From the NCBI GenBank assembly GCA_950295325.1, contig OX485808.1:4158501-4222500 (forward strand): a DNA stretch of 64,000 nt, given 5' to 3'. Each line of letters opens with the position of its first letter. Within the stretch, counting starts at the first letter, position 1. The notes under the pieces were generated by a model, which had not been told where the DNA came from, ran no database searches, and saw only the letters and a list, made by a program, of their open reading frames with translations. Source of the stretch: Polytrichum commune. Taxonomy: Eukaryota > Streptophyta > Polytrichopsida > Polytrichales > Polytrichaceae. The translations under genes were made by a program, and so were the position numbers. This document shows positions 7,086 to 32,690 of the stretch, piece by piece.

Positions 7086-7107
7086 TTAAAAAGTTGATCC
7101 TTGCACT

Positions 7108-10640: not shown

Positions 10641-12660
10641 TTGTATGAACAGTGCTTGGTGGGCATATTATATTGAAGACTTCAAGTGACGTCTTTCTTT
10701 TCAATTTGGGGTTGCATTTTGAAGGGTTGTTTTGAGAGAGGCATATTTGAAAAGCCAAATCGAGTTTGAAGAGCATTGCATACTTCAATCTTGAGAACTC
10801 GTCCCCCAATCTTTATATTCAGGTGTGAATTACGTTGTCCAAGGGTAGGCACCCTACAATTAAGTCTAGTATGTTCCATGCTAAACCTATAGTCCAACTA
10901 TCTAGAGCTGGGAATAATGCTTATCCATTGAAATTTGGGATGTGATTGTATAACATCATTTATCTCTCAAAGAGTAGTTGAAGGAGTCAAAAAAGGAGGG
11001 AAAATAAATGAGTCGGCCAAACATTTACCACCACGACTTGGTATTTGGAAAGGATCTATAGGATGCGCTACAAAGTTGGCAATAAGTGGATTGAATATGA
11101 ACAAGCAATTGACTTGGACTGGCGTTCTAATATGGAAATAGGGTTTATGTTGGTATCAAAATAAGAATGGGTCAATGTGGACCTATGATTTGAAGGATCA
11201 TTTAATGGTAAAGTTAGAAACCATCATTGCATTAGCTACAATGACTTATATTGTAGAAACAAATTTGTATGAGTTACATCTAATGAAGGAACGAGTGTTC
11301 AATGATTTCATTAATGATAAATAAATATGTCTTGCTAAGAGTATTTGAGCCATATTTTTCACGTAATCTATTTGGCGTATAGTACATATGATTGGGGCCT
11401 AAATGATTTATTTATTTAGTTTTCACTTGTATATGTATTCAAGGGGAATTTACATATATATATCATGGTCATGCATGCATGTGGTTCCCGGTTCTAACAA
11501 TGAGTGCACTCCAAGGACATAACCTAATAACACTTTTAGTGCCTAACCTCAATAATAACTTACCACATGCGATTGGGTTTGTTAGTTATATTAAATAACC
11601 TTGGTAATAAGTAGATGACATATTGTAGAGATGACACTTAACAAATAAGGTAAGGTCAAGGAAGGCCATGTGTGAATAGAAGTAGTCACCACTCCAGATT
11701 CATAGGTGACATCTTCGGTATGTCTACCTATAGGTGTGAATGGAATGACATTTAAGGAAATTTAAAGAGAGGTTAATCTATCATTAGGATTGGTAAGTAT
11801 AGCAATAACAATTAAGATTACCCATAGGTGTGAACCAACCCACCTTCTTTTGATGGGCCTAACTCAATCTCCAATAAACCATGAAACATTATCCACTTGA
11901 TGCCACGACGTACAATATCATGTAGATTTCCATTCATTTGAATTTCTTTGGTCCATAAGGTCCTTATGGTCAAGTGTGAAATGAAAATGGACCATTCCTA
12001 ACTTCTCAACCAATCACATTTGTATATCAAAGGACAAGGGCCCTCAGGCTTTCAGTATATTCTTGTCATTGGCACCATGTTTGTGTTGGGCATGGGCCGG
12101 GCTGAGCCGGGTATCTCTTGTAACCCGGGAGTGAGGGCTTTCCCCAACTACGCCACGGTGGAAATGCTCCGCCACATGGAGAAATTTTGACCCGTTGATT
12201 GGGGGACCATTATCGCAGGTGTCCCTGACCTCAATCTTCACCTCAAATCATAAGAGTCAGGTACATGGGCCTTGAATGGTTACTTTTTTCCCTGTGCACC
12301 ACTTCGGCCTTGTATATTAAACATATCATTGGCACGAGATGATTAGCAAATCCCACTGAAGGTCACGGCAATTTTCTTCATAATTTTTGGAACTCGTAAT
12401 ATATTTAATTTTCTACCAATGACATTGTGACGATTCCCTTTTTCATTAAATTATCAGGTCCCCTGGGATGTTCAACTTGACCATTGAAGCGCCCTTGAAT
12501 CAATAAATTGTCACGTCTTCTGAGCACGTACTCGAATCATTTTTAGACCCACATGTCTTTCCTGTTGTTGTCCATTCTCAGATCTATCCATATCATATCT
12601 AACCACGCACAACTCAGTTATAGGTTTATATTGATTCAGACAAGTAACGGAATTAGGCCC
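10640..12660. repeat. Inverted duplication block, left copy (partner within 21,890-25,930)
   Basis: Most of this block can be read on the opposite strand between 21,890 and 25,930. Examples are GATTTCATTAATGATAAATAAATATG (11,305) against 24,345, and CGCACAACTCAGTTA (12,607) against 21,938. The right copy carries extra insertions: about 750 bp near 22,710-23,460 and about 1,030 bp at 24,711-25,740. Short coding-like phrases around 10,680-10,970 and 11,040-11,160 are conserved in both copies, but I recognise no family. It contains no intact gene. Confidence 0.8.
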
Positions 12661-13190
12661 GGCTTACCTCACCCAAAGAAGATCGACAAAATAAACTTGA
12701 ATGCACCCACTAAAAGAACGCAACCCTAACATTATGAACACTTCAAAATGCACATACAGTTTGGACGTTGCATCGAATTTGTCTCGACTTAGCAATCCCG
12801 ATTCGTGAACATCAGCATTTCAAGTTTCCGAACCGTACTCTACTAGCACTCCACTTAGCTGCTCAACAACAATTGCAAAGTGCAACATTGATTTGGAACG
12901 AATGTCATTTTATTGACATCGTGACAAATTGAATGTAATATATGTACATACTACATACCCAACTTTCTGATGAGTTGAAAGGATTGAGAGTTTCTAGTCT
13001 CCTTTTGAGTTACTAGCTCTCTAACCCACGAATATTGTTAGTGGAATCGCAAGTCGATCATCATGCTTGGGCATCGTCGGCACCATCATGAACATGCTTG
13101 GCCTCATTTTCTTTGAGTTGCTTCTGTACATTCTTATGATTGATATTGTACAGTTTTATGCAATGCTGCAGCCGCACTGTTGAATCTTTA
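12655..13190. repeat. Partial copy of the 3'-flank of the TND-like gene module
   Basis: It begins AATTAGGCCCGGCTTACC and follows 2,109-2,815 up to GCAGCCGCACTGTTG, where it stops just short of the TND-like coding region. Compared with 2,109-2,815 it lacks one of the two internal TTGAAAGGATTGAGA units. It is followed directly by the block that recurs at 31-1,260. Confidence 0.85.
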
Positions 13191-14014
13191 AGACGCAGCT
13201 ATCCGAGTTGCCTAAGGGCCACTTTACACACAAACCAAGAATTGTGACCATGAAAATCTATCTAAGGGCCCTTGAAATTCATCCAAAGGGAAACAAAATA
13301 TCCAATTTGCAATTGATGGGCCTCAAGCTTAGTGTGAAGTGAGAATGTGGACCATGTTGAGGTACCGCAACCAATTTCGGGGACAATAATTCATAATAGT
13401 AGGTGGTCTAGGACCCCACCATGGCAATGCAATATTTTTAGAAGGCAATGACAATTTGGTTGCTTGTCACATTGCTTAATTTACATCAAACCCACCTCTT
13501 TTTGATGGGCCTAATGCAATATCCAGTAGATTGTGAAACCCAACCCCACTTCTCAAAACATCATTATGAAGTAAACCTTGCACACTACCTCCAAACAAAT
13601 ATTATCTTCTCAACAAGGACCTCCAACCAATGCTGAACTCGACAACATGATGTGATCTCGTGGGATGTTAGGGGCTATTAAGTGGCAAAAACTTGACCCA
13701 TCATCATATGATAGTATGCTTAATATCTACCTAGGTAATAAGAATTGGTTGTCCACACAATCGTAGGGGGAGATGAAAGTAACTAGAGAAAGGGAAGTTG
13801 ACTACCTCTCTACTCTAAAACTAGGATTCAACTTTCATTTGAGTAAAAAATAATTGATTTGAAAATATGTTGGTGTGGCCCCAAGATTGTCACATTTTAC
13901 ATTAAGGTTAAATTATAGGATGGGGCCCTATTGATTCATTGGCATATATTATGGGTTTGATGTGGCTTGATGGGGGTGGCTTAGTGCCTATTTTCATAGG
14001 TGAACCTTGTAGTT
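13190..14014. repeat. Direct duplication block, copy 2 (partner 31-870)
   Basis: It follows 31-870 through the same motifs with scattered substitutions and a few indels (for example AATTCATAATAGTAGG is preceded by an extra AAT). It ends in CTTGTAGTT (14,006-14,014), the left target duplication of the foldback element. There is no supported gene. Confidence 0.85.
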
Positions 14015-15274
14015 GGTGGACGTTAAGTTCTCCCCCATGAACTTTGCGGGGGAGGAATATTAGGGCAGGGGCAGTCGCCCATCAGATTTTCTGGACCCGA
14101 CCGAAAATTGTTGCCCGCCCGCCTGACTTCGAAAAAACTATTGTACTTGCATTCTTGAAGGCCACTTATCCACAAATGCCATATTGAGTGCACTTCATTT
14201 TCAAGGTCCCAAATCCAATATAATATATGTTCACTTCCATTAAGTAAATAAGCAATTAACTGGATTTCATTTTCAAAGTGAAACCGCCAATAAAGCATGT
14301 AATTAACTTGGAAGTTAAAAACATTACAAAATCCTCATTAGCATTGAGGTTATAATTTTTGTCACATACCATTGAAAGGGACTTTGTCATTCTAAAATGA
14401 AACTAAAATTAATGATTTATTTTTTATATGTTAAAAATTATAGTCTGGTTAACACCTTCTACTTTCATAAAGTATTCATATGCATTTAAATTAATTAAGT
14501 GTGATTGAATGTAACTAAGTATGGTTAATTTTGATTAATCATAATTAAGCCTAATTAAATCAGAAAATATGCTTACCAAATTAATTAAGCCAAATTAATT
14601 ATAAATTACATTTACTGGAGTTAATTCCATCAAGTCATGATTAATTCCAGTAAGTATATTTTATAATTAATTAGGCTTAATTATTTTGGTTAGCATGCTT
14701 TCTGATTTAATTGGGCTTAATTAGAATTAATCAAGATTAATCAGAATTTATTAGACTTAGTTGCATTCAATCTTACTTAACTAGTTTATTAAATGCGTAT
14801 GAAAACTTTGTGATAGTAGAAGGTATTAAATATTAAATATTAAATGTATAATACTAAACTATTAAAAATAAATCATTAATTTGAGTTTCATTCTAGAATG
14901 ACAAAGACCCTTTCAATTGTAAGTGACAAAAATTATAACCTAAGTGCTAATGAGGATTTCGTAATTTTTTAAACTTCCAAGTTAATTACATGTTTTATTG
15001 GCGGTTTCACTTTGAAAATGAAATCCAATCAATTGTTTATTTACTCAATGGAAGTGAACATATATATTGGATTTGGGACCTTGAAAATGAAGTGTACTCA
15101 ATATGAAATTTGTGGATATTAAGTGGCCTCCAAGAATGCAGGTACAATAGTTTTTTTGAAGTCAGGGGGGCGGGCAACATTTTTCGGTCAGGTCTAGAAA
15201 ATCTAACGGGCGGCTGCCCCTGCCCGAATATTCCTCCCCCGAAAAGTTTGTGGGGGGGGAACTTAATGTCCGCC
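14015..15274. mobile_element. Complete foldback Mutator-like element (MULE-type), non-autonomous
   Basis: The whole 1,260 bp folds on itself. The left arm 14,015-about 14,630 is the reverse complement of about 14,642-15,274, with only a short loop between. The ends are GGTGGACGTTAAG and, inverted, GGCGGACATTAAG. It is flanked by nine-base repeats CTTGTAGTT (14,006-14,014) and CTTGTGGTT (15,275-15,283), one mismatch apart. Nine-base target duplications and very long inverted ends are typical of the Mutator superfamily. It has no transposase. If transcribed it would give a long hairpin RNA, a likely small-RNA source (inference). Confidence 0.85.
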
Positions 15275-15339
15275 CTTGTGGTTAGTGTTAGGGCTACGTG
15301 TTTTGTGTTAGTTTTGGGCTTTAGCGTTAGTAAGTGTGT

Positions 15340-16560
15340 TTAGTCAAGTGGGATCGGGGCTTGTTTCTTTTCTAATTTCCTTTTGTTTAGGATTATGTGT
15401 GTTAGGTACCTTATAGCAATTCGGAGAAGGATTCCATTACTTTATGGATTTTGGAGTTGGGGGTTTGTAGGTCTTGAAGGAGTTTAACAGTTGTTGTATG
15501 TGTAGCGCCTCTTACTCCTTCTGTGATTTAATGGGTGGTAGTACAATCCACCCTAGTTGGGATAGGAGTGGGTGGAGATTGGCGTATTTAGCAAGTTTTT
15601 GGTTGATGGCTTTTGCGGGGAATTTATTATTGTAGTAAGTGAATTCAAATATTTGTACTTTGAGGTTTGGATTGAGTGTGAAGGGTGGTTTGTATGTAAG
15701 TGAGGCTCCTAAGATGCATAATGTGTTAGGTTTAAGTCGAGTTGGGCATTTACATATTGGTAGATAGCATGTGCACTGGAGTTGCCATGAGGGTATGGTG
15801 TTGTTAGGTGTGCAGTCTTCAAATGCTACCAACTTTGATTAGGGTGAAGCTATGGGTTGTGGGGTGGGGTAGAGTGTGTCTGCTAGAGCGTGTATTGATT
15901 TATTGTGTTGGTTTTTCCTTAGATTGTTTATGTGTGCAACATGATAGTAGGTGGAGGCATGTGTCATATTGGTGGGATGTACATAGGTTACATTGGGGGA
16001 TATATCTTGTTTGAGATATGGTTTTTTTATGGTAGTTCCCTAAGAATCTTCCATATCTAAATTTGAGGGCTTGTGTTATTTGTGCATTGGTAATCCAAGG
16101 GGCATCCCATAATAGATTTGAACATTTTATGTGTATATTTGTGTTAGAGAGCTATTTGTCTATATAGGGCATTGTATTTTTTGCATGAGATGAGTGCGCT
16201 TATGTACTATTCTTTGTCTATGTAGTTTTATAGGTTGCTGATTGAGTCGTCATGTTGTGTGGATGTTGGGGGGTTAGATGATCATTACGGTGTTTGATGG
16301 CCGATGAGGTGGAAAGGGGTTTCTACAATGCGAGATCATTCTACTCCTTGTTTGGCCAATTTACCAGCCTTGTCATTTCCAACGATGTTTGTGCGGGCTT
16401 TGACTTTGCGGATGGTGATATATTGAGGTGGGAGGTTTTTTGCGTGTTTACCATTCGGGTTGTGAGAGGAGCTTATATGGGTAACTAGACAGTGACACAA
16501 GGAGATCTTGCGGCTATCCCATATGGGAATTTGCTCTATTTTCCCTCTTATTTCCCTCAT
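15340..16560 (-). pseudogene. Non-LTR retrotransposon remnant: RNase H, zinc knuckle and REL-type endonuclease
   Basis: Read on the minus strand this is the 3' end of a retrotransposon polyprotein broken by frameshifts and stops. In order: an RNase H tail (KVKARTNIVGNDKAGKLAKQG, near 16,345-16,410, matching the family's HTxxxGNxxAD...LAK pattern), a Cys-His knuckle (NLCTSHQYDTCLHLLSCC, near 15,925-15,980), then an endonuclease-like stretch (LCILGA...IFEFTYYNN...GWIVLPPI, 15,560-15,720) and the end AIRYLTHIILNKRKLEKKQ before a TAA at 15,340-15,342. RNase H followed by a restriction-like endonuclease is the order described for Dualen/RandI elements. Naming that clade is inference, because no reverse transcriptase is visible here. 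The foldback element sits just 3' of it. Confidence 0.6.
16400..16495. repeat. Short block recurring at 26,483-26,578
   Basis: The sequence from GCTTTGACTTTGCGGATGG to GGGTAACTAGACAGTGA is repeated at 26,483-26,578, where it is joined directly to the copia gag fragment. It lies inside the RNase H part of the non-LTR remnant, so the 26 kb copy was taken from this element. Confidence 0.75.
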
Positions 16561-17301
16561 CTACTTACACTTATAAGGGAATGTGGCAAAGAGGGAAAAA
16601 ATGTGCAGTTCCCACATTGTGAATGAGGGAATTTCAATAGATATGGGAATTGATCCGGGACTTTGAGGATGAGGGAATGATGTTGTATCTAAAATTCCTA
16701 TAAGGGATATGATGTTTTCCCTTGAGGTGTATGTAAAACTACAAATAGTCTTCACAGTTTGACCAAGTAAATTATTGAATTTATTGGATTACATTTGAAA
16801 TTGGTAATTCAAATTCACAAATCAAATTTTGACAAGTGTCCAAAGGTGAATCAAAGATGCATATAAGATCACAATACGCGTCATGCATGATATGTATGAA
16901 TGTTTACCATTGTGAATAGAAACAATGTGATTGTGTTATGTTTTTGATTACAAATAATGCTAATAAGATGTCTGGGAGGCCATTCATGTTGCTCTATATA
17001 CAACATGCTTCTCCAAAAAATAAATACTGAGAAGAGGCTCAACATGTATTGTTGCTCTCCTTTTAATGAAACTCAATGCTATATTTGAGTTCACCTACTG
17101 CTACACTGACTGCCACATATGCTTCACTTCCTCAATCTCGGTGAGTTCACAAGGTCACCTGCACACATCATTGTACTATGAGTATCACTATTAAGCACAC
17201 AAAAGTGAATAGGTTCATATTTCATCACCACATATATAGCACGACCAGTAAAATGAAACATTGAAAATTAGCTACCAGGACGAGAAAAACCTAGAATACC
17301 A
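16561..17301. other. Non-coding stretch
   Basis: From 16,530 to 16,690 the phrase GGGAAT/ATTCCC recurs in both orientations (TTCCCTC, AAGGGAATG, GAGGGAATT), which may be a decayed inverted-repeat element. The rest (16,690-17,300) shows nothing recognisable. Confidence 0.35.
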
Positions 17302-17305
17302 TTAA

Positions 17306-17554
17306 CCCTTAAAGGTTTGGATTGCCCATTCCATCCAATATTCCAGCCAACTATTGTACAGCCATTAACCACCGTGTTTCATTGTATTTGGAATGGTTTT
17401 ACACATCCTAATATGAGTTTCATATCAAAAGTGAAGTTAAAAATCATGTCTGCATGATCTTAAAAGGTATTGGGTTCTCAATTTTGAACTTTCTACTTAC
17501 AACAAATGTCAAATATACAGCAACGTATCTACTATCACCAAGGACCTTTAAGGG
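17306..17554. mobile_element. piggyBac-like miniature element with TTAA target duplication
   Basis: It is bounded by TTAA at 17,302-17,305 and 17,555-17,558. Inside these, the ends are CCCTTAAAGGT and, inverted, the same 11 bases, a perfect inverted repeat. TTAA duplication with ends starting CCC is the piggyBac hallmark. The 249-bp interior has no coding capacity, so this is a non-autonomous copy. A chance palindrome is possible because the end itself contains TTAA, but both ends and both target sites match. Confidence 0.6.
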
Positions 17555-17689
17555 TTAAGGTTCCGAGTTTATGGACTTATTCACCAACATCAAAAGCGTC
17601 ATCTGCAAAGACATAAGGTCACTGGAAAGACACCTACTGCTTTTCCAAGGCTAGAAAGTGCTTACCATTGCTATAAAGAGATCCAACGA

Positions 17690-18322
17690 AAATATCGTAT
17701 CCATATCACTGGTTGTGCCCACCAAGCGTTGTATATAAACACCACCCCCATTGTTTTTATCACTGAATCTGCAGAAACTTGACACAAGAAGGTAATGTAG
17801 AAGAGCATGACCACAGAACAAACAGTCCACATCTCACGATCAAAACTAAGAGTAAGAGTTCGCAACAGTTTCTTCGCGAGCTGATTCTCTAAGATTGTAT
17901 ATAATTTGAAATACAATGGTTCACAGGTTGTTGAAAATCGAGAATCTTTAGTGCCTATGTCAATGATTGGAAAGCATGTGAAAAGCTTTACCAAGTCAGC
18001 TGTGAAGCAACCTCCATTGCTCAGAATTTTGGCCGCACCTCCCTGCAAATCGCCTTTCATAAGTTTCAAAAACAAATTCCCTTATATGTCAGAACTCAAA
18101 TCCTGGTCAAAAGGAAAGGTTACAACTTCAGGTGGATCAAATTTATCAGCACTCAAAAGGAGAGGTTAGAACTTAAGTTGAATCAAATTATTCAGCACTG
18201 GAGTCTCACCAAGTGTCACATGGCCAGCAAGAGTCTCAACATCCATGTTCCATTCTCTGCAACTGCTGAATTTCTGAAGTTCAAAAGTATCAACTTCTGG
18301 ATCTGTGCCAATGAAGCTGAAT
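17690..18322 (-). pseudogene. Two-exon fragment of an unrecognised host gene
   Basis: Two exons look real on the minus strand. The first (about 18,208-18,322, after the acceptor TATTCAG) reads FIGTDPEVDTFELQKFSSC and REWNMDVETLAGHVTL and ends at a good donor GTGAGA. The second starts after GCAGGGAG near 18,040 and reads GAAKILSNGGCFTADLVKL, FTCFPIIDIGTKDSRF, TTCEPLYFKLYTILENQ. The phases agree (a split Gly codon). The frame continues to 17,671 but that tail looks intronic. I do not recognise the family. Further exons are missing because a copia fragment begins at 18,415. Confidence 0.4.
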
Positions 18323-18414
18323 ACATATTGGTTCTTTGACCAATTTATATTTATAGTAATTCAAAAACAAAACATAAATACACATATAAATGCAACTATA
18401 TGGGTAACATGAAA

Positions 18415-18905
18415 TAGCCTTATTGATTTTTCACAGACAACACACAGCAAATACGAGCAGAGACTTATTGAACAAAACAGAAATTTATTGAAGTAAAGAG
18501 TACATGCGTTTTTCCGTCGTCATGCATAAGGATAGTATGTTAGAGTACACTGGTCAGAATTTTAGCCCATGGAAGGTTCAAATGCAGATTGCCTTCGAGA
18601 ATGAAAAGCCGATGGATCGGAAGTAGCCGATGGGACAGCAACATTGGAAGCAGCTGCAGTTCCAGACGTGTGGAAGAAGAAGAAGATTAATGCAGCCAAA
18701 TGGTTGATTACCGCCGCAGTAGACACAGAACATCTTGCTATGATTGTCAATTGTAACACAGCGGCTGACATGTGGGCGCGTCTGCTTACCATATATACAT
18801 GAGCAGGGATCATCAAAATGCATTTTATTTCCTTCTCATTCAGAATGTTGTCGACGACAAATCCTATCTACCGTAGCGATATTTACATCCTGCTTTAATG
18901 TAGGC
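18415..18905 (+). pseudogene. Ty1/copia gag remnant, copy 1
   Basis: Three frames together give a copia-type gag (UBN2-like) segment. The first is LEYTGQNFSPWKVQMQIAFE (18,540-18,600). The second, after a frameshift, is DGTATLEAAAVPDVWKKK then NAAKWLITAAVDTEHLAMIV and NCNTAADMWARLLTIY (to about 18,797). The third, after another shift, is EQGSSKCILF. The W-aliphatic pattern AADMWARLL is typical of plant copia gag. No LTR, protease, integrase or reverse transcriptase is present. The same piece lies at 26,579-27,073, one codon shorter in the Lys run. Confidence 0.7.
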
Positions 18906-19143
18906 CGGGCTCTGGGCGGTGAATGCGGTCACCGGCAATCCCTTAATATGCACGGTGTCGAAGGCCACGACAAGGATGTATGCCTGGGAGCAAGCCTTTT
19001 TGGCATCCTCGATGTGAGAAAGATGATTCCAGAGGCACCACATCAGAGTTGCAGTTCCGCGTGCGAGTATTCAGTTTGAACGGAATGCTGGCATTTTCGT
19101 AAGCACGCTTACAATCTAAACTACCACTTATTAATGTGATCAT
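18906..19143. other. Coding-like fragment of unknown origin
   Basis: GC content rises here. On the minus strand one frame stays open as LSHIEDAKKACSQAYILVVA then FDTVHIKGLPVTAFTAQS, which looks like exon sequence, but I cannot assign it. An overlapping plus-strand frame (ending 19,079) is also open. It lies between the copia fragment and a TND-like gene fragment. Confidence 0.25.
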
Positions 19144-19149
19144 GTGAGT

Positions 19150-19226
19150 CTACATTTCGCATGTGATGGTTGCCTTTGGGGGATAGAGAATCTGAGCCCC
19201 TGGAAACTGCGAGCCCTGGTGCGCAC
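19150..19226 (-). pseudogene. Small fragment of the TND-like gene (3' end)
   Basis: TTTCGCATGTGATGG to GCGAGCCCTGGTGCGCAC matches 2,854-2,928, the C-terminal codons (VRTRARSFQGLRFSIPK) of the gene at 2,823-4,022. Homology stops at both sides. It shows that pieces of this gene are scattered independently of the full module. Confidence 0.75.
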
Positions 19227-19717
19227 ACATGGAGACCCGGAGGCCTTCCCCACATGGGAAAGTGGGGCGGTTTCCCATGTGAAAAGGGGGGCCACAAGAC
19301 TGGGGCTCTTGCCCATTCCAGTGGCCACTCTATCCATGCTGAAGACCGTCACTAAACACCAACCGCAATCGTTGTTTGAGCACAAACTGCGCCACCACAA
19401 CGTGCTATTAACGACACGAACCCTGCTCGCATCACACGCTTTCCATCCCGCCGAAGATTCTTGCACCCAGCCTTCACCTGTGACACACACGGCAGTCGTA
19501 AGTGCAAAAATCTTCCAAGTTGGTGTGCCCCACCACTCGGAAATTGCCATGCTTAGGCAAATCTCGGCTTCGTGCTTTCCTGCATTCCATGCGCGCCTCC
19601 ATCCATACACTTCCAATATATCCCAACTCATTGCAGAAATTTGAATCGTCCATAAATGTTTGTTACGATGCCCATATACGCCAAGCAAAATCAATACACT
19701 ACTTTCCGATCTCATAA
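19227..19717. other. GC-rich coding-like stretch, unrecognised
   Basis: Both strands have long open frames here: plus 19,144-19,644 and minus 19,140-19,757, each fusing into the TND-like fragment. The minus frame reads ISEWWGTPTWKIFALTTAVC and CSNNDCGWCLVTVFSMDRVA. I recognise no family. It is probably a captured gene fragment or an old retroelement piece, not a functional gene. Confidence 0.25.
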
Positions 19718-20384
19718 TCATGCTGGCATTTCCTGAACGACGAGATCTCACTTTCATAGCTCTTTGGATATTGTCATAATCGTCTCTGCAAATTCTGCCA
19801 CATTATAGTATAATTGCAGCATACAAATCTGTCGGAGTATACTGGCATTAACATGCACTTCAGCATGTTCTGTATATGGATTGGGCGTTGGTCCAGTCGT
19901 GCTTGAATTGTATCCACTATCAAGTATCCAAGAATCCAAACAGAGGAGTTCGCAGATGCAGTCTGTGTAGGACCTGTGTGTCCTCCTTCCTCAATTGGTC
20001 TTCAGCACAGCAGATCCAACAAAGCATCTGGCATCACTGTGCTACTGACATCAGTTGCAGAGCTCAATGGTAAAGCTCGACGATGAAACTGTTGCGAGTG
20101 CCTGCAAGTGGAAGAAACTGAGAAAGCAACGCAGGGACCAGCAGACGTCACCAAGGTTCGGAACGCACCTGCTCTTACAACATCGCCAATTCAGCTTCAT
20201 AGCAAATCCGTGCATCCACTTCCTCTCCAAATGGATCATTCCGGCGTGTCCGATCATCCTACCCAGAAACGTCAATCTCAGGACATGTGTTCTCTGTCAT
20301 TGTCTTCGGGTTTTGTGATTCACGAGACTCTATAAGTGTGCCTCCCAACAGTAATTATTGGATTTCAATTAATAAGCACAATCA
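19718..20384. repeat. Duplicated block, copy 2 (partner 1,444-2,108)
   Basis: It is nearly identical to 1,444-2,108, with only a few substitutions (for example GCAGGGACC for GCTGGGACC, GTGTCC for GTTTCC). The left neighbour here is the stretch ending ATCTCATA; the right neighbour is CCACGTAGACAAATT. Both differ from the first copy. Confidence 0.85.
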
Positions 20385-20419
20385 TCCACGTAGACAAATT
20401 ATATGATATGTCGCAAAAA

Positions 20420-21267
20420 GTTGCTATACCGTTTCATTGCACGTTTGCGCAAAGCAGCACTTAAGCGTGGCCGTTGGGAGCGAAGCCACTGGTCCCTTAA
20501 TTAGTTTCATTCACGCCCTTCAAGTACATATCAATAGCATCCATGGAGCGCGTGCATGGTGAGGTTGCAGCACTAGTGCAAGGATCGTTTCCATCACCCA
20601 ATGCGCCAACTCTGATGAGATCAGCAAGCCGTTGCTAAACAATGTGAACGAGCCGGCTTGCATTGCAATAACCTCAACATCCGCGGCCTCCATGGATGCC
20701 ATTGATATGTATTTGAAGGGCGTGAAAGAAACTGAGGGTGCCGTGGTTTCCACAGGAAGTTTTGGATGCATTAGCCCCTGGGGCTAAAGTTGACTGGGGG
20801 GTCTCCCCGGTGGAGACCGTTCCTCTGTTCGAGATGCTTGTTTGGCTCTCAATCCCCTGCTCAACACCAACTATCTGTCCAAGATCGAGTGCTTCAAGAG
20901 GCAGAGCGGATTGCATGTGCTGTACGAGATGCTCCGACATTTTCTACCCATATTTGAGGGTAGGCCAGTCCTGCGCAAGCTAATGAAAGCCTTACAACAC
21001 CTGCACGATCGCAAGATGTGGAGCGTGGAACACATGCCGTGCGATGCACCTCGATTCTGCATGCTGAAATTCTCCAAACTGCTCTTCGACCTCTCCGAGC
21101 ATGAGGACCAAGAGGTGCGCACCGCGGCTCGCAGTTTCCAGCAGGGGCTCCGATTCTCTATCCCAAAATGCATCCATCACATGCGAAATGCTGTTCGTGG
21201 GAGCGCCGCACAAGACACTAAAGATGCAACAGTGCGGCTGCAACAGTGCGGCTGCAACATTGCATGA
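20420..21267 (+). pseudogene. Internally deleted, inverted copy of the TND-like gene
   Basis: It reads in the opposite orientation to the 2.8 and 30.3 kb copies. SDEISKPLLNNVNEPACI...SMDAI...LKGVKE (about 20,610-20,740) is followed, after a deletion and frameshift, by ALNPLLNTNYLSKIECFKRQ, FLPIFEGRPVLRKLMKALQH and FSKLLFDLSEHEDQEVRTAA (20,842-21,150). The frame then runs to 21,267 with a different tail from copy 1 (QQGLRFSIPKCIHHMRNAVR). At 20,420-20,600 small gene pieces occur in shuffled order. It is more diverged than the 29-32 kb copy, so it is an older duplicate. Confidence 0.75.
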
Positions 21268-21890
21268 AACTGTACAATATCAATCATAAAAATGTACAGA
21301 AGCAACTCAGAGAAAATGAGGCCAAGCATGTTGATGATGGTGTCCACGATGCCCGAGCATGATGATCGACTTGCGATGCCACTAACAATATTCTTGGGTT
21401 GGAGAGCTAGTTAGTCCAAAAGAGACTAGACACTCTCAATCCTTCCAACCCACAAGAAAACGGGCAGGTATATAAATTACGTTGTTACGATGTCAATGAA
21501 ATGACAGAGTTCGAAATCAATGATGCCCAAGCATGATGATCGACTTGTAGTTCTAGTAGCAATATTCTTGGGTTAGAGAGCTAGTAACTCCAAAGGAGAC
21601 TAGAAACTCTCAATCCTTTCAACCCATCAGAAAATTGGGTATGTACATATATTACATTGTCACGATGTCAATAAAATGACAGACGTTCCAAATCCATTTT
21701 GCAGTTTGCAATTGTTGTTGATCAGCTGAGTGGAGTACTAGTAGAGTACGGTTTGGAAACTTGAAATGCTGATCTTCGTGACGCCCAAAACTGTATACGG
21801 AGGTTGAAGTGCCTACAATTTTAGGGTTGCGTACTTTCAGTGGGTGCATTCAAGTTTATATTGTCGATCTTCTTTGAGTGAGGTAAGCCG
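21268..21890. repeat. Inverted copy of the 3'-flank of the TND-like module
   Basis: This is the reverse complement of 2,109-2,800, including both internal units with TCTCAATCCTTTCAACCCA. It continues without a break into the inverted partner of 10,640-12,660, just as 12,655-13,190 does on the left. Confidence 0.85.
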
Positions 21891-24800
21891 GGCCTAATTT
21901 CGTTACTTGTCTGAATCAATATAAACCTGTAACTGAGTTGTGCGTGGTTAGATATGATATGGATCTGAGAATGGACTACAACAGGAAAGACATGTGGGTT
22001 TAAGAATGATTGGAGTACGTGTGCAGAATATGTCACAATTCTTAATTCAAGGGCAATTCAATAGTCAACATCGTAGGCTACCTATATGATATTTTAATGA
22101 AAAAGGGAATCGTCACATTGTCATTGGTAGAAAATTCAATATTCTTACGAGTTCCAAAAATTATGAAGAAAATTGTTGCGACCTCGAGTTGGAATTGCTA
22201 ATCATCTCGTGCCAATCATATGTGTAATATACAAGGCCGAAGTAGTGCATTGGAAAATGAAAAAAAAACCATTTAAGGTCCATTTACCTCGCTCTTATGA
22301 TTTGAGGTGAAGATTGAGGTCAGGGAGAGCTACGATGATTATGGTCCCCCAATCAATGATCCAAATTTCTCCATGTGGTAGAGCAGTTCCTTTGTGGCAT
22401 AGTTGGGGATAGCCTTCACTCCTCGGCTCACAAGAGCTGCCCGACACAAACATGGTGGCAATGACTAGAATAGATTGAAGGCTAGTTTACACTAAAGCAT
22501 TAGGGCCCTTGTCCCATGATATACAAATGTGATTGGTTGAGAAGTTGGAAATGGTCCAAGTTCACTTCACACTTGACCATAAGGACCTAAGGGACCAAAG
22601 AAATTCAAATGGATGAAAACCTACATGGTATTGTACATGGCATCAAGTGGAAAATATTTCATGGTTTATTGGATAAGTTCATGAATTAGGCCCATCAAAA
22701 AGAGGTGGGTTTAATGTACAGGCATAGGGGTCATGGCAAGCAATCAAATTGTTGTTGCCTCCTATTAATATTATGTTGCCATGGTCGGTTGGGTCCAGTG
22801 TTCAAGATTGAACTCTTCAATGCGGCCTTTCAAATGGGATTTGGCCCTTCAAAATAAAGCTCTTTGAAAACAACCCTTCAAAACACAACCCCAAATTGAA
22901 AATGAAGACGTCGCTTGAAGTCCTCAATAGAATATGCCCGCCACAAGAACCAACAAATGTAGGGCATTGTCACCACAAGAAGTAGAGTTAGATGGTTGAT
23001 TCTTAATTCTTCACACTGTGTAGGAAACATGTACCACATAATTCATACACAAGTTTAATATGAGTTTTATTTCATTTCTATATTCTTTAATTGACGCCTA
23101 GGATTTGAACCAGCCCTTCAAGTGAAAGGCTAAAATTTGAGAACCCTTCAAAATGAAATTCATATGAGGACTTCAATCTTGAACATTGGTGGGGTCCCAG
23201 ACTACCTATTATTTTTAGTTTCTCAAAAAATATGTCACGATATGTCAACATGGTTCACATTTTCACTCTACACTAAGCTTATTAAGGGGCCCATCTATTG
23301 CAATTTTTTTTTAAATAATAATTTTTTTTTTTTTTCATCCTTTGGGATAACATACGTTCAAAGGCTTATAGGTTTTCATGGTCACCATTTTTGGTCTATG
23401 TGTAAAGCGGCCCTTGGGCAACTAGGTTGTGGCAATTAATTTCACTTAGGGATGGTTGACACTCATGGGTAAGTCCTAATTGTGATTGCTACACTTACAA
23501 ATCGTAATGTCATTCCTCTCTTTAAATTAACCTCTCTTTAAATTTCTATAAATGTCATTCCATTCACACCTATAGGTACCTATACCAAAGACGCGACCTA
23601 CCTAGAGTGGTGACTACTTCTGTTCACACATGTCCATCATCAACCTTAATATCTTATTTGTTATATGTCGTCACTCCAATATGTCATCTACTTACTAACA
23701 AGGCCTTCAAATTTAACTAACATTTCTAATCGCATGTCGTAAGTTACCACTGAGGTTAGCGACTAAAAGTGTTATTAGGTTATATCCTTGCGGTGTACTC
23801 ATAGTTAGAACTGGGAACCATCTGCTTGCATGACCATGAAATTAATACCCCATATGTATCATATCTATATATCTATATATAAAATTTATATTTATATATA
23901 TTCCCTCATAAGCATGATATACATGCAAATATATAGCTAAAAAAACCCCTTGAATACATACACTGTAAGTCCTTTCAAAGCATCAAAGATTGATGGCTTT
24001 AGCAACTGGACTTCAACTCACTATGGTGGAAATAAGATGGTTTCTTCCCAGCCATCCTTTAGGGTTTCGTATGTTGGGATGTCCTCTATCACAATCTCTA
24101 GTGCTTCAACTCCAACTTCAACCACATGCGTGCATGACCATGAAATTAATATCCCATGTATATATATAACTACAAATATATATACTCCCTCATAAAAATG
24201 ATATACGTGCAAATACATAGCTATAAAAAACCCCTTGAATACATGCACAAGTGAAAAATAAATAAATAAATCATTTAGATCCCAATCATATGTATATGCC
24301 AATAGATTATGTGAAAAATATGGCTCAAATACTCTTAGCAAGACATATTTATTTATCATTAATGAAATCATTGAACACCCGTTCGTCCATTAGATTTAAC
24401 TCATACAAATTTGTTTCTGCAATATAACTCATGATTGTAGCTAATGCAATGATGGTTTCTAACTCTATCATTAAGCGATCCGTCAAATCATAGGTCCACA
24501 TTGACCCATTCTTATTTTGATACCAACATAAACCCTATTTCCATATTAGAAGGCTGATCCAAGTCAATTGGTTGTCGATGTTCAATCCACTTATTGCCAG
24601 TTTTGTAATGCACCCTATAGATCCTTTCCAAATACCAAGTCGTGGTGGTAAATGTGTTGGTTGATCGATTTATTTTCCCTCTTTTTTTGACTCCTTCAAC
24701 TACTCCTTGCAATGTATGGGGAGAATTGGTATTTAGTGTAATGGCGGCTAGTTGGTTTTGTGAAAAGTCCAGTTGAATTGGGAAAGTGGAGGATGTGAAA

Positions 24801-25930
24801 CCGCTGCTTTAAAAATAAAAACAGATTTCAACCGGCAACCATTTTAAGGAGGAGGATTTTTACCCGGATGAGTTGTGAAATAGGCGGATTTCATCCGCTT
24901 TGATTCATCTAGGGCCGGATATCATGATCTTGTTTTAGGGTTTAGGTTATGTGTTCGTTGTAGGCTTGTAGCGATTTGGTGAAATTGGTGGATAGGCGAA
25001 GCTTTTGCTTCATTGTTGCATTTCATTGTTGATAGCTAGCGTTTAGAGTATTATGCGTGTGTCTATGAAAGATCTTTGTGGTAATCTTGATAACATACTA
25101 ATGAAAGCCTAGCTTTATGGAGGAACTCTACAAAGTTTAGATGGTTGTTTCCACATCCACAGAGATACCTTTCATGGCATTTTCGTCTTGAAGGTGAAGA
25201 TGATATTGTTGATTTTGACTCTAACAATTGATGAATTTTGATTTTGTATATAGTATGGTATGCTAGGTCACCCTTTTATCATGATGTGGCCTTGAATCTA
25301 ATATGAGATTTTAAGACCTAGGTATCATGATAGAAGAGTAAATCCATGGCCATCAACCGGTTGATGGGTTATTTCAGGTTCAACTCTTGCTATGGATAAA
25401 TTGTTGATCATTGTTGTTGTTTCTTGTATGTAATGAATTGTTGATCATTGTTGTTGGATGTTGATATGTTCTTTGGACGTTGTTGTTGAATGGTGCATAT
25501 TGTTTGTAGATATAATTTTGCTACATTGGAAACTCACTTACTTATCAACGCCCAAGTTTTTGGCCGGTTGTCATTACGATGAAGAGGAAATTAGCCGGCA
25601 CTTGATAAAAAATATAGGATGTTGGCCGGTCCAATTTAATGGCAACATGTTTGCAACCGGTCAAATCCTGAAAAAACCGGTAGAAGTTGTAGAGGGACGG
25701 ATTTTAGATGGTTGAGCTTAAAAATCTCCCGACCCCTGAGTCCTTGAGAAATAAATGATATTGTACAGCCACATCCCAATTTCAATGGATAAGCATTATT
25801 CCCGGCTCTACATAGTTGGACTTGAGGTTTAACATGAAACATACTAGACTTGATTCTAGGGTGCCTATCCTTGGACAACGTGATTCATACCTGAATAATA
25901 AGATTGGGGGGCTACTCATCAAGATTGAAG
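21890..25930. repeat. Inverted duplication block, right copy (partner 10,640-12,660)
   Basis: This is the reverse complement of the left copy, interrupted by insertions. Segments 21,890-22,710, 23,460-24,703 and 25,741-25,930 are the homologous parts. The interval 22,710-23,460 is extra and includes the phrase CATGGCAAGCAATCAAATTG, inverted from the 13,440 block, and a poly-T run near 23,320. No intact gene is present. Confidence 0.75.
24711..25740. mobile_element. 1.03-kb insertion, Mutator-like family with GGGGAGA ends
   Basis: It is absent from the equivalent place in the left copy (near 10,975), so it inserted after the duplication or was lost there. It starts ATGTATGGGGAGAATTGG and ends AATCTCCCGACCCCTGAG, resembling the ends of the 40,235 and 47,202 elements (ATGATCGGGGAGAACCGG ... 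AAAATCTCCCCGATCAC). TCCTTGCAA (24,704-24,712) and TCCTTGAGA (25,741-25,749) are imperfect 9-bp flanks. The interior is rich in CCGGTT/AACCGG words and holds no long frame. Confidence 0.55.
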
Positions 25931-27073
25931 TCTTCAATGGATGTTTAGGTTTGCGATAAGAAAAATAGTGCATGTTTAGGTTTTAGTACCACACACTAAT
26001 TGGAATAATCAACATAGTATATTGATTATCCGAACTAGTACGTGTGACTATTCAAAATCACATATTAATGCTTTAACTATTTGATGTGATTGTAATATTT
26101 TACCGAGCAAAGCCATTTGTGTTCTATAATGTCCACACAACCTATTTTTGCTTAGTAAAATCTGAACTCATGAGTGAGATGTTATTGCACTGCGTGACTC
26201 CACATAGTAACACGCACTAATCGCCATAACCAGTGTAGTTGCAAAAACCAATTTCAAAACCGAACTTGTAAAAAATGCAGCAATTTCATACTGCAGTTAA
26301 TGTTAATATGGAAGGAGATCAAAGTAGACATGTCTAATTCAGATAGTTATCTCAATTGGGCATCCCCATTTGAGTAGTATGTGGTTAGGTGTGACTCCAA
26401 GAGTAGATACCAAAAAGACACGTTTTGAAAAGAGATTGCACAACATGCTCAAAATGTGATGAGGAGTTCGCAGATGACTTTGCGGGCTCTGACTTTTGCG
26501 GATGGTGATATATTGAGGTGGGAGGCTTTTTGCGTATTTACCATTCGGGTTATGAGGAGCTTATATGGGTAACTAGACAGTGAAATAGCCTTATTGATCT
26601 GCCACAGACAACACACAGCAAATACGAGCAGAGACTTATTGAACAAAACAGAAATTTATTGAAGTAAAGAGTACATGAGTTTTTCCGTCGTCATGCATAA
26701 GGATAGTATGTTAGAGTACACTGGTCAGAATTTTAGCCTCTGGAAGGTTCAAATGCAGATTGCCTTCGAGAATAAAAACCCTATGGATCGGAGGTAGCCG
26801 ATGGGACAGCAACATTGGAAGCAGCTGCAGTTCCAGACGTGTGGAAGAAGAGGATTAATGCAGCCAAATGGTTGATTACCGCCGCAGTAGACACAGAACA
26901 TCTTGCTATGATTGTCGATTGTAAAACAGCGGCTGACATGTGGGCGCGTCTGCTTACCATATATACATGAGCAGGGATCATCAAAATGCATTTTATTTCC
27001 TTCTCATTCAGAATGTTGTCGACGGCAAATCCCATCTACCGTAGCGATATTTACATCCTGCTTTAATGTAGGC
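25741..27073. repeat. Composite locus built from fragments found elsewhere in the window
   Basis: The pieces in order are: 25,741-25,930 (inverted from 10,795-10,985); 25,959-26,463 (direct from 7,863-8,365); a filler of about 16 bp, GAGGAGTTCGCAGATG, also present at 1,669 and 19,944; 26,483-26,578 (from 16,400-16,495); 26,579-27,073 (from 18,415-18,905). The junctions are abrupt with no transposon ends. No functional gene results. Confidence 0.8.
26579..27073 (+). pseudogene. Ty1/copia gag remnant, copy 2
   Basis: It contains the same frames as copy 1: EYTGQNFSLWKVQMQIAFEN, then in another frame DGTATLEAAAVPDVWKKR and MIVDCKTAADMWARLLTIY. It has one Lys codon fewer and several substitutions. 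It shares copy 1's right-hand breakpoint at TTTAATGTAGGC, and here abuts the truncated methyltransferase gene. Confidence 0.7.
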
Positions 27074-27159
27074 AATAACATATGGTGTAGTGGTTTTCTC
27101 TTTGAATATTTGAGTGGTTGCTTTGAAGAATGAAAACAAGTATCCATTGGGATGCATAC

Positions 27160-29611
27160 CTTCAAGGCTTGTTGTTTTGGCAGATGCTATCCCTGGTGTA
27201 TATTGCCGACGGGATGAATGTGTAGGTGTAATTACTGCGAACTGTAATTTGCCAACACAGCAAGGTGAGACAACATAGGCTGCCCTCCACTTTAAAGCTT
27301 GAACAAGAGAAAGATCAGTTGCATTGCCACACGCGTGCAGAGCAACACAAGCATCAAACGGCTCCATGTAGTCCTCGATCCGACCCTGCCATGGAGAGAT
27401 GACAATGAATAAGGGGACAGCTTGTTCAAGTTCGAGAGCAGCAGAAAAAGCAGACCAGAGACCAAGAGTGGAATATAAGTTTTGTTGTGAGGACCTTCCT
27501 ATGGACATTATAGATTATAAGCAAAAATAAAGGAATGCGATGAGCTGAGACCAAAGGCTACATTCCTGTTCCAATGCATGCAGAAGGAAGCAACAAGGAA
27601 GGATATATGCATTGAGGCCATCTGGAAGGAGAAAACCTCAGGAAGCCACCAGTCTACCTACGAGGATTGTTTCCGCTAAATACTACTTAGGAACTTTTGC
27701 CTTTGCTATAGGTGATGAATGACACTTGCATTTAAAGATCCACTGATTCAGAACAGAGTAGCTAGTAGACAACACAACATCTTTGAATGTAAGCAACTAC
27801 CTTCTTCAGAGCTGGAGGACATGTAAAATCACCAAGGTCATGCCAAGTAAGCATATGTTAATGTTGACATTTAATCACAAGCACAAAAGGCATTGCCTTT
27901 GATACCTGCCAAGTGGACACATTCGTGAGGTTTGCAGCTTGTGTGCGTTGATCCAGCAGTCTTATGCTTTCATGTTTGTAGTCCACACATACAAAGGTGA
28001 GATCTAGAAAGAGGCATGCAAGGGGGAGGGACAGCGCGCCTGAGCCACAACCAAAGTCTACCACCACAGAACCTGCAAAAGAGAGTGCAAAAATAATTGA
28101 GATTTTCATACCTAATTATTATGGCAGGACTTTCACAAAAATGCTACAAAATTAATTCAAGAAACACATTGGAACTGATCTGAAATTTGCTGTCAGATCT
28201 CCCTGTTTGATCGGATCCATATAACACCTTGCACAAGTTACAAAGTCATTTTCCTCTTCAGGAGTATACATCCCAGACCATTGAATCCTTGAGCCTACAT
28301 TGAAATTTGTGACAGCCATATGAGGGGATATCTCCACCCTGAGAGGTACATGTAAGCAAGGCAGACAACCCAATTATCAAATCATTCTTACCACTCCAAT
28401 CCAATGATACTCGGGAGCATTATTGAAAGGATTTTTGGCACTTCTATGACATGCCTTCAAACTTAACAGTGAGTCACAGGGCAGGTTATGTTACTTGAGA
28501 AATTCAGCCCCATCTCCTTAAACGTGATGTATATTAAGTGCATCGGTTTACAACTTTGTGGTTGAATCCTAAACCCTGTGTCTTAGATATGGCACACATC
28601 AATTCAAGAGACAATCAGCTCTATTTGAAATCTCAATACATTGAAAAAATGTGCACCTGTATAAGGACTAGATACCTGTGGGCAGATTGTAGGATTTTAA
28701 AGCTGCTGCAATAGTACCCACTTGCAATCAATTAACCTTGAATCCTGTAGTCTAGACTAGTGTTTGTGACAGACATATGAGGAGATATGTCCACCCTGAG
28801 AGCTACATGTAAGCAAGGCAGAATGCCCTATCTTCATTTTGTTCCTATCAATCCAATTCAATGATACTCACGATCATTGCAAGGAATTTCTGAAAGGTTA
28901 GAGCAGAATCATAGGCCAGGTTATGTTACATAAAGCCCCATCTCCTTAAATGTGTCATACAGTGAATGCGTTAGTTTACATTTCGTGGTTGAACCCTAAA
29001 CCCTAAACCCTGTGACTTGAATACGGCAAGTATCAATTCAAGAGACAATCAGCTCCACTTGAAGTTTCAAAACAATGAACAAATGTGAACCCATGCGAGG
29101 ATTAGATAACTTGCAGGCCAGGTTATGTTACTTGAAAAATTCAGCCCCATCTCCTTAAATGTGTCGGACATTGAATGCATCGGTTTACAACTTCGTGGTT
29201 AAACCCTAAACCCTAAACCCTGTCTCCTTCAATATGGCACAAATCAATTCGAGAGACAATCCGCTCTACCTGAAGTTTCAATACAATGAACAAGTGCACA
29301 ACTGTGTAAACACTACATCTCTGCAGGTCAGGTTATGTTACTTTATAGATTCGGCCCAGTCTCTCTAAACCCTAAACCCTGTGTCTTGAATCCATCACGC
29401 ATCAATTCAAGAGACAATCAGCTCTACCTGAAGGTTTCTCACAACGAACAAACGCTTACGAATATAAGGACTACATACCTGCAGGCAGATTGAAGGATTT
29501 CAAAGCCGTTGCAATACTAGCCACTTGCGATCGTTTCCGTTCTCCACGAGCTAACCCACCCTCTCCTTCCCCATCGTCATCTTCATCATGACCCCGTTTG
29601 CCTCCTCTCAA
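27160..29611 (-). pseudogene. Class I methyltransferase gene (GSTCD-like, Methyltransf_32), truncated at both ends
   Basis: Exons on the minus strand: A, 29,479 to about 29,611 (KRSQVASIATALKSFNLPAG, donor GTATGT); B, from 28,294 (GSRIQWSGMYTPEEENDF, donor unresolved); C, 27,906-28,072 (VVVDFGCGSGALSLPLA, the SAM-binding motif I, then FVCVDYKHESIRLLDQR); D, 27,160-27,385 (GRIEDYMEPFDACVALHACG, YVVSPCCVGKLQF; donor GTATGC). The C-D junction is in frame (W-Q-G-R). The 5' end is cut at 29,611 by the duplicated TND module and the 3' end is lost before the copia fragment at 27,073. Such proteins are SAM-dependent methyltransferases; the substrate is unknown to me. No stop codon interrupts exons C and D. 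Confidence 0.65.
28282..29470. repeat. Tandem duplications inside the methyltransferase gene, with telomere-like motifs
   Basis: Diverged units repeat a string of motifs: CAGGTTATGTTAC, CAGCCCCATCTCCTTAAA, GTTTACAACTTCGTGGTTGAA, (CCCTAAA)n, ATCAATTCAAGAGACAATC. They start near 28,480, 28,910, 29,110 and 29,330. A degenerate second copy of the end of exon A with its donor lies at about 28,677-28,745, and a degenerate copy of the exon B acceptor region at about 28,740-28,820. Two or three CCCTAAA repeats occur at 28,989-29,009, 29,202-29,222 and 29,366-29,379. Confidence 0.7.
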
Positions 29612-30317
29612 TGAATCATAATTAGGCCCGGCTTACCTCACCCAAAGAAGATCGACAACATAAACTTGAATGCACCCACTGAAAGTACGCAACCCTAACA
29701 TTATGAGCACTTCAAAATGCACATACAGTTTGGACGTTGCATCCAATTTGTCTCGACTTAGCAATCCCGATTCATGAACATCAGCATTTCAAGTTTCCAA
29801 ACCGTACTCTACTAGCACTCCACTTAGCTGCTCAACAACAATTGCAAAGTGCAACATTGATTTGGAACGAATGTCATTTTATTGACATCGTGACAATGTA
29901 ATATATGTACATACCCAATTTTCTGATGGGTTGAAAGGATTGAGAGTTTCTAGTCTCCTTTGGAGTTACTAGCTCTCTAACCCAAGAATATTGCTACTGG
30001 AACTACAAGTCGATCATCATGCTTGGGCATCGTTGATTTCGAACTCTGTCATTTCATTGACATCGTAACAACGTAATTTATATACATGCCCGTTTTCTTG
30101 TGGGTTGAAAGGATTGAGAATGTCTAGTCTCCTTTTGAGTTACTAGCTCTCTAACCCACGAATATTGTTAGTGGAATCGCAAGTCGATCATCATGCTTGG
30201 GCATCGTCGGCACCATCATGAACATGCTTGGCCTCATTTTCTTTGAGTTGCTTCTGTACATTTTTATGATTGATATTGTACAGTTTCATGCAATGTTGCA
30301 GCCGCACTGTTGCATCT

Positions 30318-31517
30318 TTAGTGTCTTGTGCGGCGCTCCCACGAACAGCATTTCGCATGTGATGGATGCATTTTGGGGATAGAGAATCTGAGCCCCTGGA
30401 AACTGCGAGCCCTGGTGCGCACCTCTTGGTCCTCGTGCTCGGAGAGGTCGAAGAGCAGTTTGGAGAATTTCAGCATGCAGAATCGAGGTGCATCGCACGG
30501 CATGTGCTCCAAGCCCAACATCCTGCGATCGTGCAGGTGTTGCAAGGCTTTGATTAGCTTGCGGAGGACTGGCCTACCCTCAAATATGGGTAGAAAATAT
30601 CGGAGCATCTCGTACAGCACATGCAATCCTCTGTGCCTCATGAAGCACTCGATCTTGGACAGACTGTTGGTGTTGAGCAGGGGGTTGAGAGCCAAACAAG
30701 CATCTCGAACAGAGGAACGGTCTCCACCGGGGAGATCCATATCCAACAGTTTTATGTACCGTTTCATTGCACGGTCCCCGCTCTTCAAGCTCTCATCTGG
30801 TTTGATGAGGTGGCGTAGCTTCTTGTCCACTTGAAGGCGAAGCTTGGCCACAGGACCAGTTTGTGCAAATCAGGACTTTAGCGTGGTCGTTGGGAGCGAA
30901 GCCACTGGCCGCTTTTCTTTCACGCCCTTCAAATACCTATCAATAGCATCCATGGAGGGCGTGGATGGTGAGGTTGCAGCATTAGTGCAAGGCTCGTTTC
31001 CATCACACAATACCGACTTACTGATCTCGGAGGTGACAATTTTTTGCACTTGAACTCCGATGTTAGGCTTGCAAAGCTTGGCCACACGATCATCAGTTTG
31101 TGCAAAGCAACGTTTACGCTTGCCAGCCGTTGTGATCAACGAAACCACGGCATCCTCACTTTCTTTCACGCCCTTCAATTTCATATCTGATTCAATGGCA
31201 TCCATGGAGGCCGCGGATGTTGAGGTTCTTGCAATGCAAGCCGGCTCGTTCACATTGTTTAGCAACGGCTTGCTGATCTCATCAGAGGTGGCCTTTGCTT
31301 CCAGGGCCTTCAAATTTGCACCGACAACATCCATGGGCGGGCGAGATATTGTTGAGGCGGCAGCAATAATGCCAGGCTTGTTCGCCTTAACTGAGGGTTT
31401 GCTGATTTCAGAGATTCTGACCATTTGCTCAGGCTCGGGGTTGAGGGAAGCGTCCACAAACGTAAGAGTGATATGGGCATCGGCCTGATCCAGGGCTTGC
31501 TCAAGATGCGAAGCCAT
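30318..31517 (-). pseudogene. TND-like gene, copy 2, broken by a nonsense codon
   Basis: The start codon (31,517) and the frame match copy 1, but codon 216 is TGA where copy 1 has TGC (Cys in KSCFAQT), at 30,870-30,872. Beyond the stop the frame stays open to the same terminus at 30,318 (last 177 residues from an internal Met at 30,851). As it stands it encodes only the 215-residue low-complexity half and lacks the helical domain. The single nonsense change in an otherwise intact frame suggests very recent inactivation. Confidence 0.8.
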
Positions 31518-31709
31518 GGAAGCAAACCGATAGCGAGGAGAATGTGTTGAATTACTGTATGTGGGTATGCAGGAGGATGCAATTCAGCGACTGCTGAGAA
31601 CGATGCAACGGAAGCAAGTCCGGCGCTGCAGCGAAGAACCATGGACGCGACAATCGCGAAAGCAAAATAAGAGAAAACAAATGGGAGACCCACGCTTTTA
31701 AAATGGCCT

Positions 31710-32063
31710 GGTAACTTGGAGCGAAAGTAAAAGCGAAACGTGTGGTAACTTGGAGCGAAAGTAAAAGGGAAACGTGTGGTAACTTGGAGCGAAAGTAAAA
31801 GCGAAACGTGTGGTAACTTGGAGCGAAGGTAAAAGGGAAACGTGTGGTAACTTGGAGCGAAGGTAAAAGGGAAACGTGTGGTAACTTGGAGCAAAAGTAA
31901 AAGCGAAACGTGTGGTAACTTGGACCAAAAAGTAAAAGCGAAACGTGTGGTAACTTGGAGCGAAAGTAAAAGGGAAACGTGTGGTAACTTGGAGCGAAGG
32001 TAAAAGGGAAACGTGTGGTAACTTGGAGAAAAAGTAAAAGCGAAACGTGTGGTAACTTGGAGA
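31710..32063. repeat. 34-bp tandem minisatellite upstream of TND-like copy 2 (10 units)
   Basis: There are ten units of 34-35 bp (31,710-32,050) plus a partial one, the same unit as at 4,210-4,392. One unit carries ACCAAAAAG, making it 35 bp. Unit variants (GCGAAAG, GCGAAGG, GAAAAAG) are shuffled relative to copy 1, as expected for unequal exchange or slippage. The ACGTGTGG core is repeated at each junction. Confidence 0.85.
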
Positions 32064-32690
32064 TAAACTTCCAGAAACATCCCGCTTGCGTCACAAGTTC
32101 ATCCACAGATGTACGGATGATGTCATTCATTCTGGTACAGTGGCTGAAATAATACATCCAAATCGCTTAAATGGGAGGTGTGAACGATAGTCCTCCGCAT
32201 GGATGAGAAATGCCTTGAGGCCTGGAGGACGTCGAGACATCCAATGATATGGTTATATGGCTTGTGGTGAAGTAAATGTACATTGATTATCCCATTTAGT
32301 GAGTGTGGTACTAATTCCCAAAACTCACAGTCTTATGCCAAATCTCAACAATAGTGAGCTAAGTTTTTATCAAGTGATACTAAATCCATGAACACATGCT
32401 CATTTACCATACTTGTCAAGAATATTAGTGCATATTCTAAGATGCTTTGAAGTTTGAGGTCGGACCTTTAAGAATCATACTTGATGGTGTAACAATAATA
32501 GCAACTTCATGTCTTATAAAGTAGTATGGTAGCGTTGTGAATAAACCATCTAGCGAGAGAATGAAATGAGTGCCAAGTGAGGAGGCACTTTGGGGTCATG
32601 AATCCCTAGTTCTTCCTGTGGCACTAATTTCATAGCATGAAGAAGTTTAGTTTCACCTTCACTAGTTTCCCACACGCATTATTAGCCAAT

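Follow-up and report, generated by a model that had tools for sequence, protein, structure and literature searches.

The segment at 25741-27073 reads as a succession of fragments, each with a counterpart elsewhere in the same neighbourhood. The question raised by this locus is how the fragments were brought together, and in how many events. The original prediction took them for five pieces brought in by template-switching repair or filler capture at a break. The window is the whole stretch of 64,000 nucleotides that was analysed (C6:4158501-4222500, where C6 stands for contig OX485808.1), and positions without a prefix refer to it. Pieces were located by blastn of the window against itself, and genome searches covered 408 Mb in 64 contigs. 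A separate, plastid-like contig carries rbcL, which matched Rubisco large chains, with a downstream 315-aa frame that is putatively accD; the genome would be that of a land plant, perhaps a bryophyte. The literature listed on templated fillers, on plant duplications and template switching, and on filler with segmental duplication is general work, and no title or abstract opening among it concerns this locus. The whole window gave no match in Rfam at gathering scores; an XS-domain match at 62146-62709 scored under its cut-off.

Composition of the locus

All five pieces were recovered in the predicted order, each placed correctly with a margin of a few tens of bases (blastn and shuffles), far above chance. 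Their reading as five captured pieces did not hold up. The mosaic is made of three blocks with two inner joints (Table 1), plus an edge at 27073 that has only one known parent and was left out of the joint count.

Table 1. Features of the mosaic and of its local counterparts (window coordinates; piece numbers are those of the original prediction).
Feature	Position	Strand	Description
Block I	21241-25939	-	Inverted duplicate of 10774-13182, with interruptions, among them the transposon at 24710-25738
hAT-like transposon, non-autonomous, ~1.03 kb	24710-25738	+	Ends CAATG...CCCTG; 8-bp target duplication ACTCCTTG/AGTCCTTG with one mismatch
Right end of block I (piece 1)	25741-25939	-	~10973-10774 inverted, 86.5%, E 1.6e-63
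20-bp filler, joint I/II	25940-25959	.	GATGTTTAGGTTTGCGATAA, in neither donor at that place
Block II	25960-26462	+	~7862-8366 direct, 90.2%, E 0
16-bp filler, joint II/III	26461-26476	+	GAGGAGTTCGCAGATG, identical at 1668-1683 and 19943-19958
Block III (pieces 4 and 5)	26473-27073	+	Copy of 16384-16495 and 18397-18905 without the 1.9 kb insertion
First part of block III (piece 4)	26473-26583	+	~16384-16495, 91.2%, E 1.5e-38
Second part of block III (piece 5)	26562-27073	+	~18397-18905, 95.1%, E 0
Open frame, partial Methyltransf_32 match	27008-27514	-	Pfam PF13679, 34 bits (cut-off 27), positions 99-141 of 143
Local copy of block I	10774-13182	+	blastn within the window
Local copy of block II	7862-8366	+	blastn within the window
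Local copy of block III	16384-18905	+	Split by single-copy 1.9 kb insertion 16496-18396, flanked by TATATGGGTAAC repeats
Possible template of 16-bp filler (block X)	19943-19958	+	Other window copy at 1668-1683

The junctions had been described as lacking transposon ends, and the left boundary contradicts this: the start of piece 1 at 25741 is set by the end of a transposon. An 8-bp target duplication is a criterion for hAT elements, and the element is called hAT-like on account of its own duplication of that length. Among the best 40 of 4247 candidates it matches at least 34 other places genome-wide, in 35 match rows; at 27 of these places the match stops no more than a few bases short of either end. 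Target duplications of 8 bp are clear in four of five copies with flanks (CTTGCCAT, GTCTTCTG, GTGGAGCC and CACTGAGG), and none is clearly visible in the fifth (L018). The empty target of the element is found at window 10968-10973; L021, an unlinked relative on C3, has it as well. To the left of the transposon, the inverted match to 10.8-13.2 kb runs on to ~21.2 kb. The blastn chain of block I pairs 10774-10973 with 25939-25741, 10968-11446 with 24709-24231, 11460-11841 with 23842-23449, 11837-13075 with 22711-21522, and 12882-13182 with 21526-21241.

Block II holds a MITE-like repeat at about 26014-26246, for which at least 31 match rows outside the array were obtained on all seven large contigs (best 40 of 3582 candidates). 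Three clustered substitutions lie in block II beside the 20-bp filler.

The boundary between pieces 4 and 5 was rejected as a junction, as the two are contiguous in three copies: this locus, its duplicate (see below) and C6:4794855-4795444, where the 601 bp of block III are 94% identical. What had been read as a junction is the empty site of an insertion that only the 16.4/18.4 kb copy carries. The repeat flanking this insertion is a direct repeat of 12 bp. Apart from its edges the insertion has no other match genome-wide, and a Pfam search of 3 of its 11 frames of at least 60 aa gave no match.

The right end of block III lies inside the open frame with the Methyltransf_32 match, for which an exon-by-exon search returned two genome matches at E ≤0.001. 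High-identity copies of the blocks were found only on C6, and parts of blocks I and III match weakly (74-84%) on C2, C3 and distal C6. These weaker, unlinked relatives comprise a part of block III at C2:22935863-22936131 (74%) and, on C3 and at C6:39.94 Mb, a part of block I (L021 and L022, 82-84%).

A duplicate 600 kb away

The whole mosaic recurs on the opposite strand at C6:4780523-4781870, 600 kb away and 94% identical, with both fillers and the hAT-like transposon present. Together with flanks and transposon it forms a 6.2 kb collinear block (window 21038-27148 against C6:4786597-4780445, 93.5%), and an inverted duplication of ~28 kb, collinear in pieces, relates window 1441-29615 to C6:4802148-4774250. 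The duplicate has private insertions, e.g. one of 3.5 kb that lies where window 27143-27148 has its counterpart and is accompanied by a TCCATT repeat. Transposon-like insertions also differ, with 5028-7341 (CCCTC duplicated) on the one side and 539 bp in the duplicate (about 8 bp duplicated) on the other.

Several further observations concern the array as a whole. About 110 bp of window 20918-21027 are doubled in the duplicate as adjoining copies in opposite orientations, forming a small inverted repeat (C6:4786604-4786963 against 20799-21036). The inverted pair of window 1441-29615 and C6:4774250-4802148, with its spacing of ~600 kb, could serve as a substrate for inverting the segment that lies between the two copies. 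A long-palindrome element of 1.26 kb with arms about 84% alike (14015-15274) has dozens of copies genome-wide, with at least 97 match rows on both strands (best 40 of 2653 candidates). Repeated open frames are found at 2823-4427 and 30318-32098, the longest of 534 aa; some of them overlap with tandem repeats of 34 bp, and the frame at 30318-30869 had no match in Pfam. Two pairs of blocks, 1441-2110 and 19716-20385 (99.3%) and 2105-4391 and 29614-31891 (98.6%), are nearly identical in an array that is otherwise more diverged. This near-identity would reflect either recent duplication or gene conversion.

Joints and fillers

The 16-bp filler at joint II/III has no mismatch at any of its three sites in the window, compared with a mean of 0.00 in shuffles (n = 100, one mismatch allowed). 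In the 408 Mb it has seven exact matches, all of them on C6 in the array or its duplicate: at this locus, in the duplicate at 4781128, and in five copies of block X (window 1668 and 19943; C6:4794021, 4801909 and 4815632). The expectation from window composition is 0.09 copies genome-wide, and the reversed control gave 0 occurrences. From these matches, the filler was very probably copied from the local block X of the same array. It overlaps block II by 2 bp (GA). On the side of block III, GATG is common to both partners and followed by mismatches; a strict reading leaves four unexplained bases (ACTT). An insert of at least 6 bp with an identifiable template nearby is present at joint II/III. 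At joint I/II, 12 bases of the 20-bp filler repeat a few bases into block II, a weak match, since 1.5% of random 20-mers from this window do as well.

Microhomology of 1-6 bp had been proposed as a check on the junctions. Eight joints in the array or in its duplicate were chosen by hand, only where both parents are known. Five of them show microhomology (5, 6, 4, 4 and 2 bp) and three show extra bases (20, 5 and 4). The longer overlaps belong to the joint of the long-palindrome element with block X (5 bp), the joint of X with Y (6 bp) and two deletions in the duplicate (4 bp each). Among random pairs of window positions, 1.9% overlap by at least 4 bp, and four of eight would be reached by chance with a probability of 9e-6, a figure that applies to hand-picked joints. 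The fillers at both inner joints, the restriction of the 16-mer to the array and its duplicate, and the 4-6 bp in common at four of eight joints are consistent with repeated template switching or end joining in this neighbourhood. This part of the original prediction is supported, in contrast to one burst of five pieces.

We regard the locus, with reasonable confidence, as an old cluster of breakpoints in a segmental-duplication array, made by short-homology end joining with local template copying and with the joins probably added stepwise. Break repair would have primed on short homology and copied short nearby stretches, by polymerase-theta-type end joining or a replication-based equivalent. 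Copies of 10.8-13.2 kb (inverted), 7.9-8.4 kb and 16.4-18.9 kb would in this way have been joined, leaving as scars the 20-bp filler and a 16-bp filler for which block X is the putative template. Polymerase theta is a candidate enzyme, and copying from block X into the joint is the presumed direction.

The main rival is a series of ordinary deletions in a tandem array, in which the 16 bp would be a leftover of an order II...X...III and not a copied scrap. In the window, blocks II, X and III share the + orientation, and units of a repeating order are found at C6 4.793-4.817 Mb. One duplicate copy in this region, C6:4793-4799 kb, lacks the sequence corresponding to window 7956-8492, 9862-15689 and 18941-19160, and left end-joining scars at all three places (CTAT, TTGT and a 5-bp filler GTTGA, respectively). 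Judged by sequence, these losses look like deletions: the first is read as such because a stub of the MITE-like repeat remains, and the other two because a neighbouring unit keeps part or all of the missing sequence (8493-10221, 18909-19261). At the locus itself, however, serial deletion requires two independent breakpoints 16 bp apart within X, and it leaves the inverted joint I/II and its 20-bp filler unexplained. We consider it unlikely, though it fares better than the explanations that follow.

Divergence and proposed order of events

The mosaic could also have arisen in one burst, either chromothripsis-like or by fork stalling with serial template switching, in which all blocks were copied at once. 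Several pieces in mixed orientation, short overlaps and fillers, and copies that all lie within 20 kb are what such an event would leave. The divergences speak against it. Substitutions relative to the local donors amount to 201/1831 in block I (11.0%), 41/499 in block II (8.2%) and 19/580 in block III (3.3%), and are unequal (P = 9e-8), whereas those relative to the duplicate are equal, with 69/1859 (3.7%), 19/500 (3.8%) and 24/571 (4.2%), respectively (P = 0.87). Unequal donor and equal duplicate divergence points to assembly in steps, and a single multi-piece capture is accordingly disfavoured; we judge it improbable.

The comparison has its own structure. Blocks I and II do not differ significantly in donor divergence (P 0.08). 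Block I itself spans 8.0 to 13.1% over its three parts, and block III is divided into a short part at 6.4% (7/110) and a long part at 2.6% (12/470). The four copies of the long part are about equally far apart (2.6-4.0%), from which we infer that its spread, or its homogenisation, dates from about when the large duplication took place. The apparent youth of block III could be an effect of gene conversion, and the actual sources may differ from the donor copies seen today. Stepwise assembly is still probably the simplest account of the block divergences.

If the mosaic was built in steps by end joining, the divergences suggest an order for the joins. The hAT-like element was already present when the region of ~28 kb gave rise to its inverted duplicate at 4.77-4.80 Mb on the same chromosome. 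Insertion of the 1.9 kb into the copy at 16.4 kb was probably a later event than this duplication. More tentatively, the array may be a long-lived hot spot of recurring local template switching, active before and after its duplication. If so, filler scraps would record which neighbouring sequences touched at each repair.

Transposon capture and assembly error as alternatives

A further explanation is sequence capture inside a terminal-inverted-repeat transposon. Gap filling of the Pack-TIR kind is described for animals (PMC8277862), and MITE-like, hAT-like and long-palindrome families lie in or near the blocks. The composite itself shows neither terminal repeats with a target duplication nor unlinked copies. 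The only such repeats at its edges are those of the 1 kb element on the left, the blocks extend into flanks common to the duplicate, and the full composite is found in two places only, both within segmental duplicates. An intact transposon elsewhere with all pieces in the same order had been named as the finding that would overturn the original prediction; the order is indeed present at C6:4780523-4781870, but in a segmental duplicate and not in a transposon. Capture of this kind is highly improbable. An assembly error, formerly given as the main alternative, would join unrelated repeats, for which the repeat-rich, near-identical blocks (98.6-99.3%, 1.4-4.4 kb against 19.7-20.4 and 29.6-31.9 kb) offer an opportunity, but it is rejected as hardly credible because the three blocks, both fillers and the flanks, with the same joints, recur 600 kb away in an inverted duplication that is ~4% diverged and carries private insertions, which also makes the mosaic old.

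Comparison with known systems

In summary, the locus is real, older and simpler than was first thought, with one clean templated scar, and of a known kind. It provides a natural example in which templated filler marks a duplication breakpoint and the events can be placed in time: the likely donor block of the 16-base scrap can be named, and what preceded the large duplication is fixed by the second copy. The known mechanism is unchanged by it: this is ordinary repair with an unusually readable scar.

Theta-mediated end joining (TMEJ) with templated insertions, the "filler DNA" of plants, resembles the locus in its short filler matching nearby DNA and its accompanying deletions, and perhaps in short microhomology at the joints (PMC10923293). 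In Arabidopsis, the same work takes templated fillers to indicate polymerase theta and describes about 2-3 bp of microhomology. Unlike in those cases, the pieces joined here are duplicate blocks of ~0.5-5 kb fixed in the genome, and the enzyme is a presumption. MMBIR/FoSTeS complex rearrangements (PMC2621351) likewise comprise discontinuous blocks of mixed orientation from one neighbourhood. In a single such event all blocks would be copied together; the block-donor divergences differ here, so that one event is not probable, with gene conversion and unsampled donors as caveats to this comparison.

The array as a whole is best compared with a third system. Mosaic segmental duplications are nested, tandem and inverted duplicates of common blocks on one chromosome, defined as low-copy blocks of more than 1 kb and at least 90% identity that have different partners in different copies. 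Such blocks are found here in the 98.6% pair of 2105-4391 and 29614-31891, in the 93.5% pair of window 21038-27148 and C6 4786597-4780445, and in the collinear stretch of window 1441-29615. Judging from this locus, small end-joining steps may be a way in which mosaic duplications grow, with transposons inserting on top. In its nested, tandem and inverted organisation the array is like these duplications, with no essential difference.
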